This document shows, piece by piece, positions 30,004 through 39,092 of a stretch of DNA of 64,000 nt. The stretch spans positions 2,723,511 to 2,787,510 of the forward strand of contig NZ_SIRP01000001.1 in assembly GCF_011634835.1 (NCBI RefSeq), written 5' to 3'. Source of the stretch: Isoptericola sp. BMS4. GTDB taxonomy: Bacteria; Actinomycetota; Actinomycetes; Actinomycetales; Cellulomonadaceae. Under the pieces are notes generated by a model, which was not told the DNA's origin, searched no databases, and saw only the letters and a program-made list of their open reading frames with translations. Both the position numbers and the translations under genes were made by a program. Each line of letters begins with the position of its first letter. Position 1 is the first letter of the stretch.

Positions 30004-30190
30004 CCGCACGTCAGAGCACGACGTGGACCGACGCGGACACGCACGCGAGGGCGGCGCGGACGCTCCCTGAGCCGGCGCGCCGCCGTCCCAGGACGCCCGC
30101 ACCCGCTGGGTCCGTTCCCGCCCGCCGTACCGGTGCTGCCGGCCGCCCCGGCACGGGCCACCGGTGTTGGCGCTCGACATGAAGATGCGC
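30004..30190. other. Intergenic stretch without recognisable features
   Basis: This is the first part of a 321-bp gap between the phosphotransferase and the isomerase genes. No gene, RNA or clear hairpin was seen. The second part carries the promoter listed next. Confidence 0.5.
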
Positions 30191-30324: not shown

Positions 30325-31233
30325 ATGACGACGACAGCACCTGCCCGCCGCTCGCTCCGGATCGCCGCCGCCTCGGCGGCCGGACTGGCCGTCGCACTGT
30401 CGGCGGCGAGCGGGGCCGCCGCCGCCCCGCCGGAGGACGCGGGCCGCACGGTGCCCGCCAGCAAGATCTCCATCCAGCTGTACAGCCTGATCCCGTGGGT
30501 GGCCGAGGACGGTCTCGAGCCGGTGCTCGCCGAGCTCTCGGCGATGGGCTACCGCAACATCGAGCCGTACGGGGGCAACTTCGCCGGCTACACCGCCGAG
30601 GAGTTCCGCTCCCTCGCCGACAAGTACCACCTGAAGGTCTCCGCGTCGCACAACAGCACGGACGAGGCCACGTGGGACCAGACGCTGGCCTACTCCAAGA
30701 CCCTCGGCCAGCAGTACGTCGGGTCCGGCGGGTTCGCGTCCCCCGGCATCGGCAGCTACGAGGACACCCTGGCCACGGCCGCGACCCTGAACCGCCTGGG
30801 AGAGGCGGCGTCGAAGCAGGGGCTGCACAAGATCTTCGGCCACAACCACCAGCACGAGTTCACGACCGTCTACACGGACCCGGCCACGGGCGAGGAGAAG
30901 TCGGCCTGGGAGATCATCGCCGACCACACCGACCCTCGGTACGTGACGTTCGAGGTCGACGTGCTGTGGGCATACGACGCCGGGATCGACGTCGTGCAGC
31001 TCCTGGAGACCTACGGGGACCGCATCGAGCTGCTGCACATCAAGGACGGCTTCCTCAACGGCGACGACCGGGCGACGTTCGCGAACGTCGGCGAGGGCGA
31101 GCTGGACTGGGAGCCGATCCTCGAGGCGGCCCACGGCCACGTGCGGTACTACACCCTCGAGTACGACCTCGCCCCGGACGGCCGCGACTTCGCCTCCGAG
31201 AGCTTCGACCACCTCAACACCCTCACGTACTGA
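30325..31233 (+). CDS. Secreted sugar phosphate isomerase/epimerase-like TIM barrel protein
   Basis: A 302-residue protein with an N-terminal signal (RRSLRIAAASAAGLAVALS... to AAAAPPED, about 1-36), so it is exported. The rest is an AP-endonuclease-2/xylose-isomerase-like barrel: KISIQLYSLIPWVAEDGL, SASHNSTDE, HNHQHEFT, TFEVDVLWAYDAGID and LLHIKDGF contain the His/Glu/Asp metal ligands of this fold. Cytosolic relatives isomerise or eliminate sugars and their 3-keto derivatives; export of such an enzyme is unusual. It is first in the cluster behind the promoter at 30211-30239; a hairpin separates it from the oxidase. Confidence 0.85.
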   Translation: MTTTAPARRSLRIAAASAAGLAVALSAASGAAAAPPEDAGRTVPASKISIQLYSLIPWVAEDGLEPVLAELSAMGYRNIEPYGGNFAGYTAEEFRSLADKYHLKVSASHNSTDEATWDQTLAYSKTLGQQYVGSGGFASPGIGSYEDTLATAATLNRLGEAASKQGLHKIFGHNHQHEFTTVYTDPATGEEKSAWEIIADHTDPRYVTFEVDVLWAYDAGIDVVQLLETYGDRIELLHIKDGFLNGDDRATFANVGEGELDWEPILEAAHGHVRYYTLEYDLAPDGRDFASESFDHLNTLTY

Positions 31234-31237
31234 CGCA

Positions 31238-31270
31238 GACCGGGTGGGCCTCCCCCTGGCCCACCCGGTC
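31238..31270 (+). terminator. Hairpin between isomerase and multicopper oxidase genes
   Basis: A perfect 13-bp stem (31238-31250 with 31258-31270) and a 7-nt loop lie 5 bp after the stop codon. It could end part of the transcription or stabilise processed ends within the operon. Confidence 0.7.
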
Positions 31271-31305
31271 GCGCGCCACCCCGACATCCCCTGAACGGAG
31301 CAGTC

Positions 31306-32319
31306 ATGCCTGACAACGGTGTCACCGCGGGCCGGGGCCTCTCCCGCCGCACCATGCTCACCTCGGCCGTCGCCGGCGTCGTCGCACCCGCCGCCGTCGT
31401 CGCCCTCGGGGCGGACGGCGCGGCCGCCGCCGTCCCGGGGGCGCTGCCCGGGAAGAAGGGCAAGACCCGGAAGATCACCCTCTACGCCGAGGAGCTCCCC
31501 GGCGGCCTCTACGGCTACGGGTACGCCCCGGGCGAGGCCACCGTCCCGGGCCCCGTCCTCGAGATCTGGGAGGGCGACACGCTCGAGATCGAGCTCGTCA
31601 ACACCACCGACCGGCAGCTGTCCATCCACCCCCACGGGGTCAACTACGAGACGACCTCCGACGGCAGCCCCATGAACGCCTCGTTCAACGCGCCGGGCGA
31701 GACCCGCACCTACGTGTGGACCACCCAGGAGCCCTACCAGGTCAAGGGCCAGTGGATGCCCGGCAGCGCCGGCTACTGGCACTACCACGACCACGCGATG
31801 GGCACGTCCCACGGCACCGAGGGGGTCCGCAAGGGCCTGTACGGCGCGCTCGTCGTGCGCCGCAAGGGCGACCCGCTCCCCGACCGCCAGTTCACGGTCG
31901 TGTTCAACGACATGACCATCAACAACAAGGCGGCGCCCGACATCCCGCTGCTGGAGGCGCGGCTCGGTGAGCGCGTGGAGTTCATCGCCGTCGGGCACGG
32001 CGACATGTACCACACGTTCCACGTGCACGCGCACCGCTGGGCCAACAATCGCACCGGGCTCCTGGACGGGCCGAACGACCCCACGCAGGTCGTGGACAAC
32101 CGGGACCTCAATCCGGGCGACTCGTTCGGCTTCCAGGTGATCGCCGGCGCCGGCGTCGGGCCCGGGGCCTGGATGTACCACTGCCACGTCCAGTTCCACG
32201 CCGACGGCGGGATGGCCGGCGTGTTCCTCGTGCGCAACGCCGACGGGAGCATGCCCGACGGCGCCCAGGCGGCGCTGGACCGCTATCACCAGCACGGCTC
32301 CCACCCGCACGCCGGCTGA
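31306..32319 (+). CDS. Secreted two-domain multicopper oxidase (small laccase-like)
   Basis: A 337-residue copper oxidase. The N-terminus has a twin-arginine signal (LSRRTMLTSAVAG ... GADGAAAA). All four copper motifs are present: SIHPHGVNY, YWHYHDHAMG, HTFHVHAHRW and the T1/T3 motif YHCHVQFHADGGMAG. The length and two cupredoxin domains match the trimeric small laccases of streptomycetes, which oxidise phenols or Cu(I) with oxygen. In this cluster it could reoxidise the cupredoxin encoded downstream (inference). Confidence 0.9.
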   Translation: MPDNGVTAGRGLSRRTMLTSAVAGVVAPAAVVALGADGAAAAVPGALPGKKGKTRKITLYAEELPGGLYGYGYAPGEATVPGPVLEIWEGDTLEIELVNTTDRQLSIHPHGVNYETTSDGSPMNASFNAPGETRTYVWTTQEPYQVKGQWMPGSAGYWHYHDHAMGTSHGTEGVRKGLYGALVVRRKGDPLPDRQFTVVFNDMTINNKAAPDIPLLEARLGERVEFIAVGHGDMYHTFHVHAHRWANNRTGLLDGPNDPTQVVDNRDLNPGDSFGFQVIAGAGVGPGAWMYHCHVQFHADGGMAGVFLVRNADGSMPDGAQAALDRYHQHGSHPHAG

Positions 32320-32453
32320 CGAGCCGGAGGCTCCCCGACCCGACCCCGACCCCCACCGTCCGACACCCGACAACCCGACCGACGGACTCCCCGACTGTCC
32401 AGGGCCGTCCCGGAACCCCGGGGCGCCCCCCGATCACTCGCGAAGGAGCAGTG

Positions 32454-35400
32454 ATGGAACGGATACGAAGAGATCGCACCCTCCGTGCCGGCCGCGCGCC
32501 GGCACGGAACACCGCCCGGATCGTCGCCACCACCGGCACGGCGGTCCTGTTCGCGGGGCTCGCCGTGACGCCCGGCGTCGCCGCCACCGCCCCACCGTCC
32601 CCCGCACCGGAGAGCGCCGCCGAGTCGGCGCCGACCACCACGACCCGCGCGCCGGGAGAGCAGGTCGCGACCACCTCCGCCGAGATGCGGGTGCTGGTGT
32701 TCCACGGCGCCCCCGGCGACCAGGTCGACCCGGTCGAGCTGGCCGCGCAGACCGTCGCCGACCTCGCGGCGGAGCACGGCTTCGAAGCCGAGGTCACGAC
32801 CGACCCGGGCGCCTTCACCGCCGACAACCTGGCGCAGTACCGCGGAGTCGTGTTCCTCTCCGCGGAGGGCGCCGAGCTCGACGCCGACCAGGAGTCGGCG
32901 CTGCGCTCGTACGTGGAGGCCGGCGGCGGGTTCCTCGGCGTGCGTGACGCCGCCCGCGCCCAGGACCGCTCGCAGTGGTTCACCGGGCTGATCGGCACCC
33001 GCCCGGCGGGCAACCTGCCCGACCCGGCGGACGTCGCGACCGCCACGGCCAGCGCCGAGAACCCGCCGAACGAGGTGGCCGCCAACCTGGTGGACGGCGA
33101 CCCGGGCACCAAGTGGCTCGCGTTCGAGCCCACCGCCTGGCTCGAGGTCGAGCTCACCGAGCCCGTCGTGGCCACGCGCTACGCGCTCACGTCCGCGAAC
33201 GACTTCGACGGCCGTGACCCGGAGAGCTGGACCCTGCAGGGATCGACCGACGGCGAGTCGTGGACCGACCTCGACACGCGCTCCGACGAGGACTTCCCGG
33301 ACCGGTTCCTCGCGCAGGACTACCGGTTCGACAACGAGACGGCCTACCAGCACTACCGGCTCGACATCACCGCCAACGCCGGGGACGACCTCACCCAGCT
33401 CGCGGAGCTGGAGCTGTTCGACGCCGCGTCGGAGGCCGAGCCCGAGCCCGAGATCCCGGTGCAGGAGGCCACCGTCGACGTGCTGGACCAGCGGCACCCG
33501 GCGACCGAGAGCCTGCCGGCCACCTGGACCCGCTCCGACCGGTGGCTCAACTGGGCACCGAACCCGGTCGGCGAGGTGCACACCGTCGCCCAGGTCCAGG
33601 AGTGGGACTACGACCCGGGCGAGGGCGCGAACGGCGCGTTCCACCCCGTCTCGTGGTGCCGCGACTACGACGGTGGCCGGTCGTTCTACACCGGCATGGG
33701 CGGCACGGCGGACAGCTACGGCGAGGACGCGTTCCGCGACCACCTCACCGGCGCCCTGCTGTGGACGACCGGCGCGGTGCGTGGCGACTGCCAGGCGACG
33801 ATCGCGGCGAACTACACCACCGAGCGCCTGACCGCCGAGAACGCCGAGGGCGAGCTCGACCAGATCGGCGAGCCCCACGGGCTGACGATCGCGCCCGACG
33901 GCGGCGTCTTCTACATCGGCAAGGCCGCGTGCCCGTCCGGCCCGGTCGTGCCGTGGGAGGACCCCGACGTCGGCCTGGGCTGCGGCACCATCCACCGCTG
34001 GGACCCCGAGTCCGAGGAGACGTCCCTGCTGACCACCCTCGACGTGATGGGCAACCGCGGCAGCGGCAGCGAGCTGGTCAAGAACGAGGAAGGCCTCATC
34101 GGCATCACGCTCGACCCGAAGTTCGACGAGAACGGCTGGGTCTACGTGTTCTGGATGCCGCACGAGTCGATCGACCGCGAGCGCCGCGTGGGTGAGCGGA
34201 CCGTGTCCCGGTTCACGTACGACGCCGAGGCGAACACGATCGACCAGTCCACCCGCGTCGACCTCATGGCGTGGGAGACGCAGATCCACAGCTGCTGCCA
34301 CGCGGGCGGCGGCATGGACTTCGACGACGAGGGCAACCTCTACATCGGGTCCGGCGACAACAACTCCTCCGGCGGGTCGGACGGGTACTCCGGCAACAAC
34401 TGGACCGAGGAGTTCGCCGGCATCTCGTTCCAGGACGCGCGCCGCACCTCCGGCAACACGAACAGCTACAACGGCAAGATCCTGCGGATCCACCCGGAGC
34501 CGGACGGCACGTACACCATCCCGGAGGGCAACCTGTTCCCCGAGGGCGAGTACCCGGCGGACAAGACCAAGCCGGAGATCTACGTCATGGGCGTGCGCAA
34601 CATCTCGCGCCTGCACTACGACACGAAGAACGACTGGCTCAACGCCGCCTGGGTGGGCCCGGACGCCTTCAGCCCGGACCCCGAGCTCGGGCCGGCGAAG
34701 TACGAGACGGCCACGATCATCACCGAGGCGGGCAACCAGGGCTGGCCGTACTGCATGGGCAACCAGCAGCCCTACCGTGACCGGTCGAACGAGGACGCGA
34801 GCATCCTCACCGGCTGGTACGACTGCGACGACCTGAAGAACACCTCGCCCCGCAACACGGGCCTGGTGGACATCCCGCCGGCCCGGGACAACATGATCTG
34901 GTACTCGCCGTCCGGCGGTGGCCCGGTCTTCCCGATCGGTGAGGACGGCGTCCCCTCGTACGAGGAGGACGAGGCCACCTACACGCTGCCGTACCTGCGT
35001 GGCGGCGGCCAGGCGGTGATGGACGGGCCGACGTACCACCGGTCCGAGGTCGACACCGACAGCGGTGTGGCCTGGCCGGCGCACTGGGACGACACGTGGT
35101 TCATCGGCGACCAGTCCAACCCCAACAACCGCATCGCCGTCACGGTCGACCCCGAGAAGGTCGACGAGGCGGGGGCCCCGGTGTACGCCGAGGACCTGCG
35201 CCGGATCATCCGTCCCGGTGGCGGTGACGACGAGCTGCAGAGCTGGATGGACGCGAAGTTCGGTCCGGACGGCGCCCTGTACATGCTCGACTACGCGGGC
35301 GGCTTCTTCTCGCTCCACGACAACCAGAAGCTGATCCGCATCACCTACGACGGCGGCCCGGCGACGCCGGCCCCGGCCGGGAGCGCCACGAGCGTGCAGA

Positions 35401-36491
35401 GCGACCCGCTGACGGTCGCCTTCACGGGGGCGCGCTCGGGCGGCGTCTCCTACGCCTGGGACTTCGGGGACGGCGCCACGTCCACGGAGGCGAACCCGCG
35501 GCACACCTACGCGCGCGTCGGCAGCTACGACGCGACGCTGACGGTGACGTACGCCGACGGCGAGACCGTGACGGTGGACGTGCCGGTGTCGATCGAGTGC
35601 GCGGTCCCGGACGACCGGGACACCGTCTGGATCGGTGACAGCGACTCGGGCGTGACGAACCACGACCTGGGCGGCTGCACCATCAACGACCTCATCGGCG
35701 ACGACAAGCAGTGGGAGTCCCACGGCGCCTTCGTGAAGCACGTGAACGCCGTGGTGAACCAGCTGAAGGCCGACGGCGTCGTCTCGGGCAAGGAGAAGGG
35801 GAAGCTGACCCGCACCGCGGCGCGGTCCGACGTCGGCAAGGACGCCTCGGCCGGCTACCGGTGGTTGTTCGACGGGACGGCGGAGTCGCTGGACGGCTGG
35901 CGCCAGGCTCCCGGCGGCAGCTTCGAGCTGACCGACGGCGGGTCGCTGGCGTCCCGCGGCGGACTGGGCATGTTCTGGTACGCGGCCGAGGAGTTCGACG
36001 ACTTCTCGCTCAAGCTCCAGTTCCGCGACGTCTCGCAGGGTGACCACTTCGCGAACACGGGCGTGTTCACGCGGTTCCCGGACCCGCGGGTGCCGCAGGC
36101 CGAGCGCCCGGAGTGCGGGCAGGGCACCAGCGCCGAGGCGTGGGTGGCGATCTACTGCGGCCACGAGATCCAGATCTACGACGGGCCCTCGGGCGAGCCG
36201 CAGAAGACCGGGTCGGTGTACAACTTCGACCCGGTCGGCCTCGACGAGGCGGGCGTCACGGACAAGGGGGTCTGGAACGACTACGAGATCCGCGTGGTCG
36301 GCCAGCAGTACACGATCATCCGCAACGGCGAGGTGCTCAACGAGTTCGTCAACTCGCCGGGGAAGGAGTCGTCGCGGGCGGGTGACCCCCCGACCGACCT
36401 GCGCCAGTTCCTCAGCGGGTACGTCGGGCTGCAGAACCACAGTGACAGCGACCTCGTCGAGTTCCGCAACATCCGGGTGAGCGACCTGTAA
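32454..36491 (+). CDS. Secreted multidomain ThuA / F5-8C / PQQ-type sugar dehydrogenase / PKD / DUF1080 protein
   Basis: A 1345-residue exported protein with an Arg-rich signal (1-46). In order: the first half of a ThuA domain (78-180), an F5/8 type C discoidin domain (~186-325), the second half of ThuA (~340-448, LDQRHPATESLPATW, GGRSFYTGMGG), a six-bladed sorbosone/PQQ-glucose dehydrogenase-like propeller (~470-965), a PKD domain (~976-1050, YAWDFGDGATSTEANPRHTY), a short unknown domain with HGAFVKHV (~1052-1137), and DUF1080, a 3-keto-glycoside hydrolase-like lectin fold (~1138-1345). ATG 32454 is preferred over GTG 32451 because of AAGGAG 6 bp upstream. The domain set implies oxidation and cleavage of sugars outside the cell. 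Confidence 0.88.
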   Translation: MERIRRDRTLRAGRAPARNTARIVATTGTAVLFAGLAVTPGVAATAPPSPAPESAAESAPTTTTRAPGEQVATTSAEMRVLVFHGAPGDQVDPVELAAQTVADLAAEHGFEAEVTTDPGAFTADNLAQYRGVVFLSAEGAELDADQESALRSYVEAGGGFLGVRDAARAQDRSQWFTGLIGTRPAGNLPDPADVATATASAENPPNEVAANLVDGDPGTKWLAFEPTAWLEVELTEPVVATRYALTSANDFDGRDPESWTLQGSTDGESWTDLDTRSDEDFPDRFLAQDYRFDNETAYQHYRLDITANAGDDLTQLAELELFDAASEAEPEPEIPVQEATVDVLDQRHPATESLPATWTRSDRWLNWAPNPVGEVHTVAQVQEWDYDPGEGANGAFHPVSWCRDYDGGRSFYTGMGGTADSYGEDAFRDHLTGALLWTTGAVRGDCQATIAANYTTERLTAENAEGELDQIGEPHGLTIAPDGGVFYIGKAACPSGPVVPWEDPDVGLGCGTIHRWDPESEETSLLTTLDVMGNRGSGSELVKNEEGLIGITLDPKFDENGWVYVFWMPHESIDRERRVGERTVSRFTYDAEANTIDQSTRVDLMAWETQIHSCCHAGGGMDFDDEGNLYIGSGDNNSSGGSDGYSGNNWTEEFAGISFQDARRTSGNTNSYNGKILRIHPEPDGTYTIPEGNLFPEGEYPADKTKPEIYVMGVRNISRLHYDTKNDWLNAAWVGPDAFSPDPELGPAKYETATIITEAGNQGWPYCMGNQQPYRDRSNEDASILTGWYDCDDLKNTSPRNTGLVDIPPARDNMIWYSPSGGGPVFPIGEDGVPSYEEDEATYTLPYLRGGGQAVMDGPTYHRSEVDTDSGVAWPAHWDDTWFIGDQSNPNNRIAVTVDPEKVDEAGAPVYAEDLRRIIRPGGGDDELQSWMDAKFGPDGALYMLDYAGGFFSLHDNQKLIRITYDGGPATPAPAGSATSVQSDPLTVAFTGARSGGVSYAWDFGDGATSTEANPRHTYARVGSYDATLTVTYADGETVTVDVPVSIECAVPDDRDTVWIGDSDSGVTNHDLGGCTINDLIGDDKQWESHGAFVKHVNAVVNQLKADGVVSGKEKGKLTRTAARSDVGKDASAGYRWLFDGTAESLDGWRQAPGGSFELTDGGSLASRGGLGMFWYAAEEFDDFSLKLQFRDVSQGDHFANTGVFTRFPDPRVPQAERPECGQGTSAEAWVAIYCGHEIQIYDGPSGEPQKTGSVYNFDPVGLDEAGVTDKGVWNDYEIRVVGQQYTIIRNGEVLNEFVNSPGKESSRAGDPPTDLRQFLSGYVGLQNHSDSDLVEFRNIRVSDL

Positions 36492-36511
36492 CCCGGCTCG
36501 TTCCCGGAGCC

Positions 36512-36557
36512 GTCCCGGTGCGGGGCGGGCGACCACGCGTCAGCCCCGCACCGGGAC
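36512..36557 (+). terminator. Hairpin between ThuA-multidomain and cupredoxin genes
   Basis: A perfect 15-bp stem (36512-36526 with 36543-36557) with a 16-nt loop, 20 bp after the stop. It may be a terminator with read-through, since the next gene has only a 57-bp leader after it. Confidence 0.7.
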
Positions 36558-36614
36558 GCCCCGGGCGGCCCCACCCGGGCCGCCTCCCTCCTTCGCAGCG
36601 AACAGAGGTGCACC

Positions 36615-39092
36615 ATGAATCCCCCCATCCTCGGCCACCGCCGGCGGGGCGCTCCCGCGGCCGCCGGCCGGACCCGCCTCGTCGCCGGGGCAGCGGCCGG
36701 CGCGCTCGTCGCGGTGGCCCTCGCGGTCCCCGCGGCGTCCGCCGTGCCCACCGCCGGCGACGCCACGCAGCCGGGCACGCAGCAGTCCGCGCCGACGGCG
36801 GACGTGCTGGCGGAGCAGGTCCTGACATTCACCGGGAGCAACAGCGTCACCGAGTACGCCTCCGCCCCCACCACCGCCACCGCGGGGCCCGCCACGATCG
36901 TGTTCGAGAACAGCGTCGCGACGGGCAACACCATCGGCATGAGCCACACGCTCACGTTCGACACGACGACCCCGGGCTACAACCACGACGTCGACCTGGA
37001 CATCCTGGCCAACCCCTTCGACTCGACCGAGGGCCGCCACGAGGTCGAGGTCACCCTGACCCCGGGCACGTACCGCTACTTCTGCGCCATCCCGGGCCAC
37101 GGCACGATGGTCGGCGAGCTGGTCGTGACGGACGGTTCCGGCGGCGAGGACACCACGGCGCCCACCGTCACGGCCGACGTGACGGGCTCCCAGGACGCCG
37201 ACGGCGCGTACGTCGGCTCCGCGACCGTCACGCTGAACGCGTCCGACGCCGAGTCCGAGGTGGAGTCGGTCGAGTACGAGGTCGACGGCGGCGGGTTCCA
37301 GCCCTACACGGAGCCCTTCGACGTCACGGCGCCCGGCGAGCACACTGTCACGTTCCGGGCGACCGACACCGCCGGGAACACCTCCGAGGCCGCCACGACG
37401 ACCTTCACCGTCGTCGAGGAGACGCCGGAGGACGTCGTGGCGCCGACCGTCACGGCGGACGTCACCGGCGAGCAGGACGCCGACGGCTCCTACGTCGGCT
37501 CCGCGACCGTCACCCTGACGGCCACCGACGACGACTCCGGCGTCGCCTCCGTCGAGTACGACCTCGACGACGCCGGCTTCACCGAGTACACCGAGCCGGT
37601 CGAGCTGACCGAGCCGGGGATGCACATGCTCTCCTACCGGGCCACCGACCAGGCCGGCAACGTCTCCGAGGCCGCGATGGTGCACGTCGTCGTCGTCGCC
37701 GAGGACACCACCGCGCCGTCCGTCACGGCCGAGGTCACCGGCGAGCAGGACGCCGACGGCTCCTACGTCGGCTCCGCGACCGTCACCCTCGCCGCCACCG
37801 ACGACGAGTCCGGCGTCGACACCGTCGAGTACGACCTCGACGGTGCCGGCTTCGCGGCGTACACCGACCCCGTGGTCGTGACGGCCCCGGGCGAGCACAC
37901 GCTCGGCTACCGGGCGACGGACGCCGCCGGGAACGTGTCGGAGGCGGGTTCGGTGACCTTCACGGTCGTCGGGACCGGCGAGGAGGACACGACCGCGCCC
38001 GTGGTCGCCGCCGAGGTGACCGGGGAGCTCGACGACGACGGCGCCTACGTCGGCACGGCCACCGTGGCGCTGACCGCGACCGACGAGGCCTCGGCCGTCG
38101 AGAGCGTGGAGTACGACCTCGACGGCGACGGTTTCACCGCGTACGACGAGCCGTTCGACGTCACGACGCCCGGCGAGCACACGGTGCGGTACCGGGCCAC
38201 CGACGCCGCCGGGAACGTCTCCGAGCCCGGGGCCGTGACCTTCACCGTGGCCGAGCCCGTCGCCGAGGACACCACGCCCCCGGCGGTGACGGCCGACGTC
38301 ACGGGCGAGCAGGACGGGGACGGCGCCTACGTCGGCTCCGCGACCGTCGCCCTGAGCGCCACGGACGAGGAGTCGGGCGTCGCCTCCGTCGAGTACGACC
38401 TCGACGGCTCCGGATTCATGGCCTACACCGACCCGGTGGTGATCGACGCCGCGGGCGAGCACACGCTCACCTACCGGGCGACGGACGAGGCGGGCAACGT
38501 CTCCGAGCCGTCGGCCGTCGACGTCGTGGTCGTGGCCGACGACGGCGAGCCCGACGACACCGCGCCGCCCTTCGTGGCCGCCGACCTCACCGGTGACCGG
38601 GACGACGACGGTGCCTACGTCGGCGAGGTGAGCATCGAGATCACCGCGACGGACGAGGGCTCCGGCGTCGCCGGGATCGAGTACGCGCTCGACCAGGCGG
38701 CCTTCACCGCCTACACCGGGCCCGTCACCGTGTCCGACCCGGGCGCGCACACCCTGCGCTACCGGGCCACCGACGACGCGGGGAACACGTCGACGACACA
38801 GACGCTGCCGTTCCTCGTCTCGCGGGCCGGCACCGACGTCTGCCCTGCCTCCGACGAGCGGGAGACCGTGATCGTCGGGGGCGTCGACTCCGGCGTCGCC
38901 AACGTCGACACCGGCGACGGCTGCACCGTGGCCGACCTCGTCGACGCCGACGGCGAGTACGCCAACCACGGCGCGTTCGTCTCCCACGTCCGGGACGTCG
39001 CCACGACGCTGGCCGACGACGGGACGATCGACAAGAAGGACCGTCCGAAGCTGGTCCGCGCCGCGGCCCGCTCGGACGTCGGCAAGGGGTAG
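36615..39092 (+). CDS. Secreted cupredoxin with six OmpL47-like repeats
   Basis: An 825-residue exported protein (signal 1-44). Residues ~62-176 form a plastocyanin-like cupredoxin with copper ligands visible in IGMSHTLTF and YRYFCAIPGHGTM (His, Cys, His, Met). Six ~93-residue repeats follow (~176-735), each with DGxYVGSATVxLxATD and a GEHTLxYRATDxAGNVSE ending, typical of OmpL47-type beta domains, probably a spacer or binding stalk. The last ~85 residues (~741-825) hold the HGAFVSHV ... AAARSDVGKG domain shared with the preceding protein. It is a likely extracellular electron carrier between the dehydrogenase and the oxidase. Confidence 0.87.
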   Translation: MNPPILGHRRRGAPAAAGRTRLVAGAAAGALVAVALAVPAASAVPTAGDATQPGTQQSAPTADVLAEQVLTFTGSNSVTEYASAPTTATAGPATIVFENSVATGNTIGMSHTLTFDTTTPGYNHDVDLDILANPFDSTEGRHEVEVTLTPGTYRYFCAIPGHGTMVGELVVTDGSGGEDTTAPTVTADVTGSQDADGAYVGSATVTLNASDAESEVESVEYEVDGGGFQPYTEPFDVTAPGEHTVTFRATDTAGNTSEAATTTFTVVEETPEDVVAPTVTADVTGEQDADGSYVGSATVTLTATDDDSGVASVEYDLDDAGFTEYTEPVELTEPGMHMLSYRATDQAGNVSEAAMVHVVVVAEDTTAPSVTAEVTGEQDADGSYVGSATVTLAATDDESGVDTVEYDLDGAGFAAYTDPVVVTAPGEHTLGYRATDAAGNVSEAGSVTFTVVGTGEEDTTAPVVAAEVTGELDDDGAYVGTATVALTATDEASAVESVEYDLDGDGFTAYDEPFDVTTPGEHTVRYRATDAAGNVSEPGAVTFTVAEPVAEDTTPPAVTADVTGEQDGDGAYVGSATVALSATDEESGVASVEYDLDGSGFMAYTDPVVIDAAGEHTLTYRATDEAGNVSEPSAVDVVVVADDGEPDDTAPPFVAADLTGDRDDDGAYVGEVSIEITATDEGSGVAGIEYALDQAAFTAYTGPVTVSDPGAHTLRYRATDDAGNTSTTQTLPFLVSRAGTDVCPASDERETVIVGGVDSGVANVDTGDGCTVADLVDADGEYANHGAFVSHVRDVATTLADDGTIDKKDRPKLVRAAARSDVGKG
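37139..38820 (+). repeat. Six in-frame ~280-bp tandem repeats inside the cupredoxin gene
   Basis: Six consecutive units, each starting near a TAPxVTADVTGEQDADG-like segment (starts near 37147, 37438, 37711, 37996, 38275 and 38563). Units 2 and 3 are also very similar in DNA sequence, so recent duplication or unequal crossing-over is likely. Copy number could vary between strains. Confidence 0.75.

Follow-up and report, generated by a model that had tools for sequence, protein, structure and literature searches.

The locus described here lies in a stretch of 64,000 nucleotides (the window) of Isoptericola sp. BMS4, taken from contig NZ_SIRP01000001.1 of assembly GCF_011634835.1, and comprises four consecutive genes: a xylose-isomerase-like barrel, a two-domain small laccase, a large multidomain protein (the big protein) and a cupredoxin protein. 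The genes and domains named in an initial annotation of this DNA were confirmed from open reading frames (ORFs) and by Pfam/NCBIfam profile searches, on which the domain assignment is based. To these were added an F5/8C domain inserted in the ThuA domain and an 81-residue domain with two Cys present in two of the proteins. The unit formed by the laccase, big and cupredoxin genes is real and widespread, being the barrel a variable element. The features, in window positions, are the following (aa, amino acids):

30325-31233, + strand: secreted xylose-isomerase-like TIM barrel gene, 302 aa from the ATG at 30325 (ORF and Pfam)
31306-32319, + strand: two-domain small laccase with Tat-like (twin-arginine) signal, 337 aa, 12 copper-ligand positions kept
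32451-36491, + strand: big multidomain protein, 1346 aa, with split ThuA, F5/8C, GSDH propeller, PKD, 81-aa two-Cys domain and DUF1080
32685-33800 (approximate), + strand: ThuA domain, split by the F5/8C insertion (Pfam 5.9e-57), with Arg165 and Gly418 at the usual His positions
33033-33440 (approximate), + strand: F5/8C carbohydrate-binding-like domain, nearest in PDB to its counterpart in the GH92 mannosidase 7nsn
33825-35375 (approximate), + strand: GSDH propeller of sorbosone/sGDH (soluble glucose dehydrogenase) type (Pfam 2.7e-18), with His617, Arg716 and Asn717
35385-35594 (approximate), + strand: PKD domain (Pfam)
35598-35840, + strand: 81-aa two-Cys domain, first copy, no Pfam match
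35859-36479, + strand: DUF1080 / 3keto-disac_hyd (Pfam 1.9e-30), residues of ExQ..D, KTGSVY, N and R kept
36615-39092, + strand: cupredoxin protein, 825 aa, with cupredoxin, six OmpL47-type repeats and 81-aa domain
36813-37142, + strand: type-1-copper cupredoxin domain, with His111, Cys157, His162 and Met165
38841-39083, + strand: 81-aa two-Cys domain, second copy, C-terminal in the cupredoxin protein (sequence match)

The intergenic gaps are 72 bp (barrel/laccase), 131 bp (laccase/big) and 123 bp (big/cupredoxin). The ORF list opens the barrel earlier, at a GTG at 30133. Signal-peptide-like N-termini were predicted by eye in the four proteins, the one of the laccase being Tat-like (SRRTML) and the one of the barrel containing ARRSLR. 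A scan of the locus identified no promoter-like sites and no terminator-like sites between the genes; the single terminator-like site lies inside the big gene, a number below chance expectation.

The family search comprised 81 genomes including the window's own (G000), and a full-length match to the big protein was identified in 14. Laccase, big and cupredoxin genes were contiguous in all 13 of the other cluster-bearing genomes. A scan of named genomes with a big-protein profile gave 440 pattern matches, 405 of them confirmed relatives, from which the best 80 were analysed; these are the closest relatives, and proportions among the remaining 325 may differ. They belong to Promicromonospora, Amycolatopsis, Saccharomonospora, Prauserella, Jiangella, Micromonospora, Streptomyces, Nonomuraea, Rhodococcus and other genera. 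The laccase was identified in 78 of these 80 loci and directly upstream of the big gene in 76, the exceptions being L073 (downstream of the big gene) and L119 (upstream, on the opposite strand); in eight Micromonospora loci it is divergent, 41-46% identical to the window's. The cupredoxin protein was identified in 76 loci: directly downstream of the big gene in 58, farther downstream in L057, and upstream of the laccase in 17 belonging to Streptomyces, a Streptomyces relative and one Micromonospora group. Neither partner was found in L060 and L071, the latter starting 63 bases before the match, and the cupredoxin part was not found in L056 and L100, where the L100 gene is cut by the locus end. 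Gene-family clustering of the 80 loci plus the window used predicted genes, with rougher gene calls than the protein search, and recovered the big gene in 81/81, the cupredoxin gene in 72/81 and the laccase in 64/81. The core genes stand out from their surroundings, because the next most common family was present in only 27/81.

A repeat protein of ~337 aa (L069:15342-16352 and 26 other loci) was observed near the cluster in 27/81 loci; by eye it looks secreted and beta-helix-like, and the two members scanned had no Pfam match. The window's big protein is nearer to the copies of another genus (75-77%) than to the copy of Isoptericola halotolerans (68%), a similarity that may reflect transfer. 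One family copy of the big gene (L018) contains a TGA within the matched stretch.

The association was also identified in the reverse direction, by searching 80 genomes of the genus of Amycolatopsis palatopharyngis (L052) with the small laccase 3t9w. A laccase with at least 61% identity to the query was present in 53 genomes, and the 30 best of these 53 loci all contained the big gene beside it; in 20 of the 30 the laccase was directly preceded by the gene for a secreted barrel with 30-34% identity to that of the window. These loci come from species of one genus and hence are not independent. The exact source genome of the 3t9w laccase was sought among the 80, the best match being 72%. Longer flanks were read in 24 Amycolatopsis loci, mostly picked for the barrel (19 with it, 5 without). 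In 18 of the 19 barrel-bearing loci, including the one that supplied the queries, an ABC ATPase, a sugar-type binding protein and a Gfo/Idh/MocA dehydrogenase were upstream on the same strand, and 18 of the 19 also contained a second barrel with no signal by eye. None of these four elements was found in the 5 barrel-less loci within the flanks read. The cupredoxin gene was present in 5 of the 24, most stretches ending before its expected position. The Amycolatopsis Gfo/Idh gene has relatives in 5 of the 80 named loci, and the ATPase has close relatives (66-67%) in 3.

The laccase belongs to Cu-oxidase_2/3 in Pfam and its best PDB matches are two-domain small laccases; it resembles enzymes of this class (3t9w, 9ix9/8aip and 3cg8) in sequence and copper ligands. 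All 12 ligand positions are kept in 79/79 aligned sequences. Position 159 is His in 69/79 and is presumably not a copper ligand. One Streptomyces genome contains two laccases: the clustered one is nearest 9ix9/8aip (623 bits vs 473 for 3cg8), whereas the second, nearest 3kw8 and 3cg8 (which we take to be the S. coelicolor laccase), has, unlike the window's, no cluster neighbours. Small laccases may accordingly comprise a clustered and a stand-alone kind, the latter represented here by a single case.

In the cupredoxin protein, the ligands His111, Cys157, His162 and Met165 are kept in 77/77 aligned sequences. Its N-terminal piece alone matched Copper-bind at 2.3e-4 and 21.9 bits (cut-off 21.2), and the OmpL47-type repeats were identified at 1.6e-155. 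The 81-aa domain shared with the big protein gave no match in a Pfam scan, and its two Cys are invariant in 27 aligned copies. The window's genome has three matches: in the big protein the domain separates PKD from DUF1080, in the cupredoxin protein it is C-terminal, and in a protein encoded elsewhere it precedes DUF1080. A reading frame with the latter arrangement, L043:9614-10669 (G000:C1:2088622), has a signal-like N-terminus by eye.

The propeller of the big protein matched by profile 2ism (3e-8), sGDH (2e-6) and, with E 0.005, the hedgehog-interacting protein. His617, Arg716 and Asn717 are invariant in 81/81 aligned big proteins, and a hidden Markov model (HMM) alignment to 1c9u places them at sGDH His144, Arg228 and Asn229, the catalytic set of that enzyme (PMC6881810). 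The HMM alignment ends before the place of sGDH Arg408, leaving the C-terminal half of the propeller outside it; Ser931 and Met933 stand at sGDH Arg406 and Arg408 as placed by eye on the PDG-LY motif. In DUF1080, Glu1239, Gln1241, Asp1244, Lys1252, Ser1255, Tyr1257, Asn1276 and Arg1291 are invariant in the 81 aligned proteins and Asn1292 is kept in 78. Judged by the domain and its conserved residues, a putative DUF1080 hydrolase of a 3-keto-glycoside pathway is present. The ThuA domain is degenerate. Its positions 165 and 418, which we take to be the two usual His positions, are Arg and Gly in the window. At position 165 the 81 aligned proteins have Arg in 29 cases and His in 22, and at position 418 Gly in 37 cases and His in 23. 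Because of these replacements the window's ThuA is probably non-catalytic, and the part in keto-sugar chemistry assigned to it earlier is not upheld.

The barrel belongs to AP_endonuc_2 (Pfam, 5e-15) and its best PDB match is 8bvk, AtOGE of Agrobacterium, an Mn-dependent 3-keto-O-glycoside beta-eliminase whose metal and catalytic residues are described (PMC10628242). The metal ligands His132, Asp163 and His189 and the weak ligand Glu233 correspond to His, Asp, His and Glu in the window barrel, and the catalytic His134 to a His. Two registers are possible in aligning the His-rich stretch, and both give His. OGE-type motifs were present by eye in 14/14 aligned barrels.

The distribution of the barrel differs from that of the core. 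In the 13 other cluster-bearing family loci it was identified in none, with E up to 10 and chance-level matches only, and as a core member it was rejected for the family. Relatives (~31-34% identical) were present in 13 of the 80 named loci and missing in 67; in 9 of the 13 (L073, L080, L098, L100, L101, L102, L109, L112 and L116) the barrel gene immediately precedes that of the laccase, and in 4, all Streptomyces, it lies beyond the big gene. Co-conservation of the four genes, which the initial annotation suggested checking, holds for the laccase, big and cupredoxin genes and fails for the barrel. Moreover, 11 of these 13 barrels are more similar (56-58%) to another secreted barrel of the window's genome, encoded next to a paralogue elsewhere, than to the window's barrel. 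By sequence they are not its orthologues, so that the cluster has acquired barrels of different branches repeatedly. In Isoptericola halotolerans the closest barrel (84-86%) is apart from the laccase, big and cupredoxin genes, between a phosphotransferase-like and an aconitase-like gene, a place that resembles the window's when neighbours are matched by eye.

Barrels were further identified with propellers of the same kind. Those 47-59% identical to the window's are fused in-frame to a GSDH propeller in 7 of 15 loci (L147-L153), with one, two or three barrels per fusion and propellers 31-34% identical to the window's. In three more loci (L155, L156 and L158) barrel and propeller are side by side, and in the last four (L154, L159, L160 and L161) no propeller was found near the barrel. 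The 15 loci were chosen partly for a known nearby propeller and the share of fusions is not a rate.

The paralogue in the window's genome (L041, G000:C1:3293000-3312999) is an 1869-aa ThuA-GSDH protein without DUF1080, surrounded by an ABC importer, a ROK regulator, two barrels, a small ThuA protein and an EboE-type gene. EboE-type genes adjoin this paralogue and also the cluster in the Amycolatopsis loci L116 and L195, and the own-genome copy scored above the cut-off of NF035939. In L195:1601-6780 and L116:3716-8913 the EboE-type gene run immediately precedes the barrel, laccase, big and cupredoxin genes on the same strand. An Ebo link as part of the system was rejected, as an EboE-type gene was identified in only 1 of the 80 named loci.

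A 3-keto pathway is reportedly present in gut Bacteroides. Three other known systems resemble parts of the cluster. AtOGE and related C-glycoside enzymes (PMC10628242) share with the window barrel the fold family, the metal ligands and the catalytic His; unlike AtOGE, the latter has a signal-like N-terminus and relatives beside or fused to a propeller dehydrogenase. The lactose route of Caulobacter (PMC9007349) likewise couples a non-cytoplasmic oxidation to a DUF1080 protein, but its dehydrogenase, LacABC, is membrane-bound and in three parts, whereas here GSDH propeller and DUF1080 are in one polypeptide with copper proteins adjoining. The fungal AA12 pyranose dehydrogenase CcPDH (PMC6881789), dependent on pyrroloquinoline quinone (PQQ), is also an extracellular propeller with a carbohydrate-binding module; it has a built-in cytochrome b mediator and can drive lytic polysaccharide monooxygenases (LPMOs), in contrast to the separate cupredoxin and laccase found here. 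No description of the present cluster was found in the open literature searched, although one may exist in print.

The simplest reading of which genes stay together is an electron route. That soil actinomycetes keep a dehydrogenase, a blue-copper protein and a small laccase together suggests an extracellular electron chain to oxygen. The preferred reading, which we hold to be about evenly balanced between right and wrong, is a secreted glycan-oxidation unit where electrons pass from a quinoprotein-type dehydrogenase to cupredoxin, laccase and oxygen, while cleavage of the oxidised glycoside falls to DUF1080 and the barrel. The big protein would bind glycan through its F5/8C and PKD domains, and its GSDH propeller would oxidise the sugar with a bound quinone, PQQ or a relative. 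The reduced quinone would hand electrons to the cupredoxin protein at its type-1 copper, this protein presumably being held close by the 81-aa domain that it shares with the big protein, and from there they would reach the small laccase, which would reduce oxygen to water. The last step is the known chemistry of the laccase family. DUF1080, part of the polypeptide that carries the propeller, would cleave the oxidised sugar, most likely a 3-keto-glycoside, and so would the OGE-like barrel, by beta-elimination, in loci that have one. The products would be imported and then reduced inside the cell; an importer and a dehydrogenase gene are often in the same gene run in Amycolatopsis and absent from the window's run. 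The chain as drawn would conserve no energy, and its benefit would therefore lie in making resistant glycosides accessible. The extracellular sugar chemistry and copper electron route proposed earlier are supported by the co-conserved core, the invariant residues and the fusions, with function deduced from sequence.

Several points weigh against this reading. Electron transfer between the partners is inferred from gene content, and what points to oxidation at C3 is solely the presence of DUF1080 and the barrel. No known C3 dehydrogenase, of LacABC or Gfo/Idh type, was identified among the window's four genes. To these are added the degenerate ThuA, the barrel loci without a nearby propeller, and a barrel that is missing from most cluster loci and not orthologous in those that have one. 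Of the sGDH contacts to the PQQ carboxylates, Lys377 and Arg408, the latter seems, by eye, replaced by Met933. In fungal AA12 the Lys377 contact is missing too and a differently placed Arg is used (PMC6881789). PqqC was not identified by profile search in any of the 14 cluster-bearing family genomes, the window's included, nor was it matched in the 14 control genomes. This model does detect PqqC above its cut-off in Amycolatopsis (74 of 80 genomes), which makes the absence from the family appear genuine. PqqC was also unmatched in G086, G090 and G096 of the 53 laccase-bearing Amycolatopsis genomes. The propeller would then rely on PQQ acquired from the surroundings or on a different cofactor. 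With respect to the initial annotation, the catalytic His617, Arg716 and Asn717 are kept, the place of Arg408 seems changed, and PQQ dependence as it was stated is not supported.

Also against the preferred reading, the sGDH family oxidises at C1, not C3 (PMC6881810), and DUF1080 also includes an endo-xanthanase/lichenase (PMC9007349). In an alternative explanation the propeller could accordingly be an ordinary aldose 1-dehydrogenase forming a lactone, with DUF1080 as a plain glycoside hydrolase or glycan-binding module and the copper route retained. We consider this unlikely, as the OGE-like barrels fused to or beside related propellers point to keto-sugar cleavage. It is also rather unlikely, while deserving attention, that the laccase is the central element, oxidising lignin or humic phenols while the dehydrogenase re-reduces quinones and radicals with sugar electrons and the cupredoxin acts as carrier. 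Two-domain laccases do oxidise phenols, most of those studied having a low potential of 0.35-0.45 V (PMC8236229), and phenol cycling would need the same genes together; it leaves DUF1080, the barrel fusions and the importer with the Gfo/Idh gene unexplained.

The replaced Arg408 position (by eye), the missing PqqC, the changed ThuA His positions and the weak similarity to hedgehog-interacting protein would all agree with a propeller that has lost its cofactor and forms with ThuA a glycan-binding scaffold like that protein, the copper proteins acting elsewhere. This is improbable in view of the three invariant propeller residues and of the better profile matches to PQQ enzymes. Finally, a dehydrogenase supplying electrons to LPMOs, like fungal AA12 and cellobiose dehydrogenase, would have a functional parallel in CcPDH (PMC6881789), and LPMO_10 (PF03067) was identified in 15 of 18 cluster genomes searched. 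It was not found by profile search in the cluster-bearing G000, G007 and G048, and in the remaining genomes the closest same-contig match (in G032) is separated from the big gene by ~87 kb; this role is disfavoured and very improbable.

Many structures of two-domain small laccases have been solved, and no gene partners are named for them in the parts of the literature examined. The conserved dehydrogenase and cupredoxin neighbours provide concrete candidate partners for these enzymes. A broader proposal, that a soluble extracellular chain with a private 81-aa docking domain cuts glycosides via keto-sugars and that small laccases include true terminal oxidases, is possible, though we lean slightly towards doubt. 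If true, there would be a route for sugar electrons outside Gram-positive cells with no cytochrome in the cluster, keto-glycoside cleavage would extend to the secreted space, and the small laccases so far studied as phenol oxidases would include terminal oxidases.

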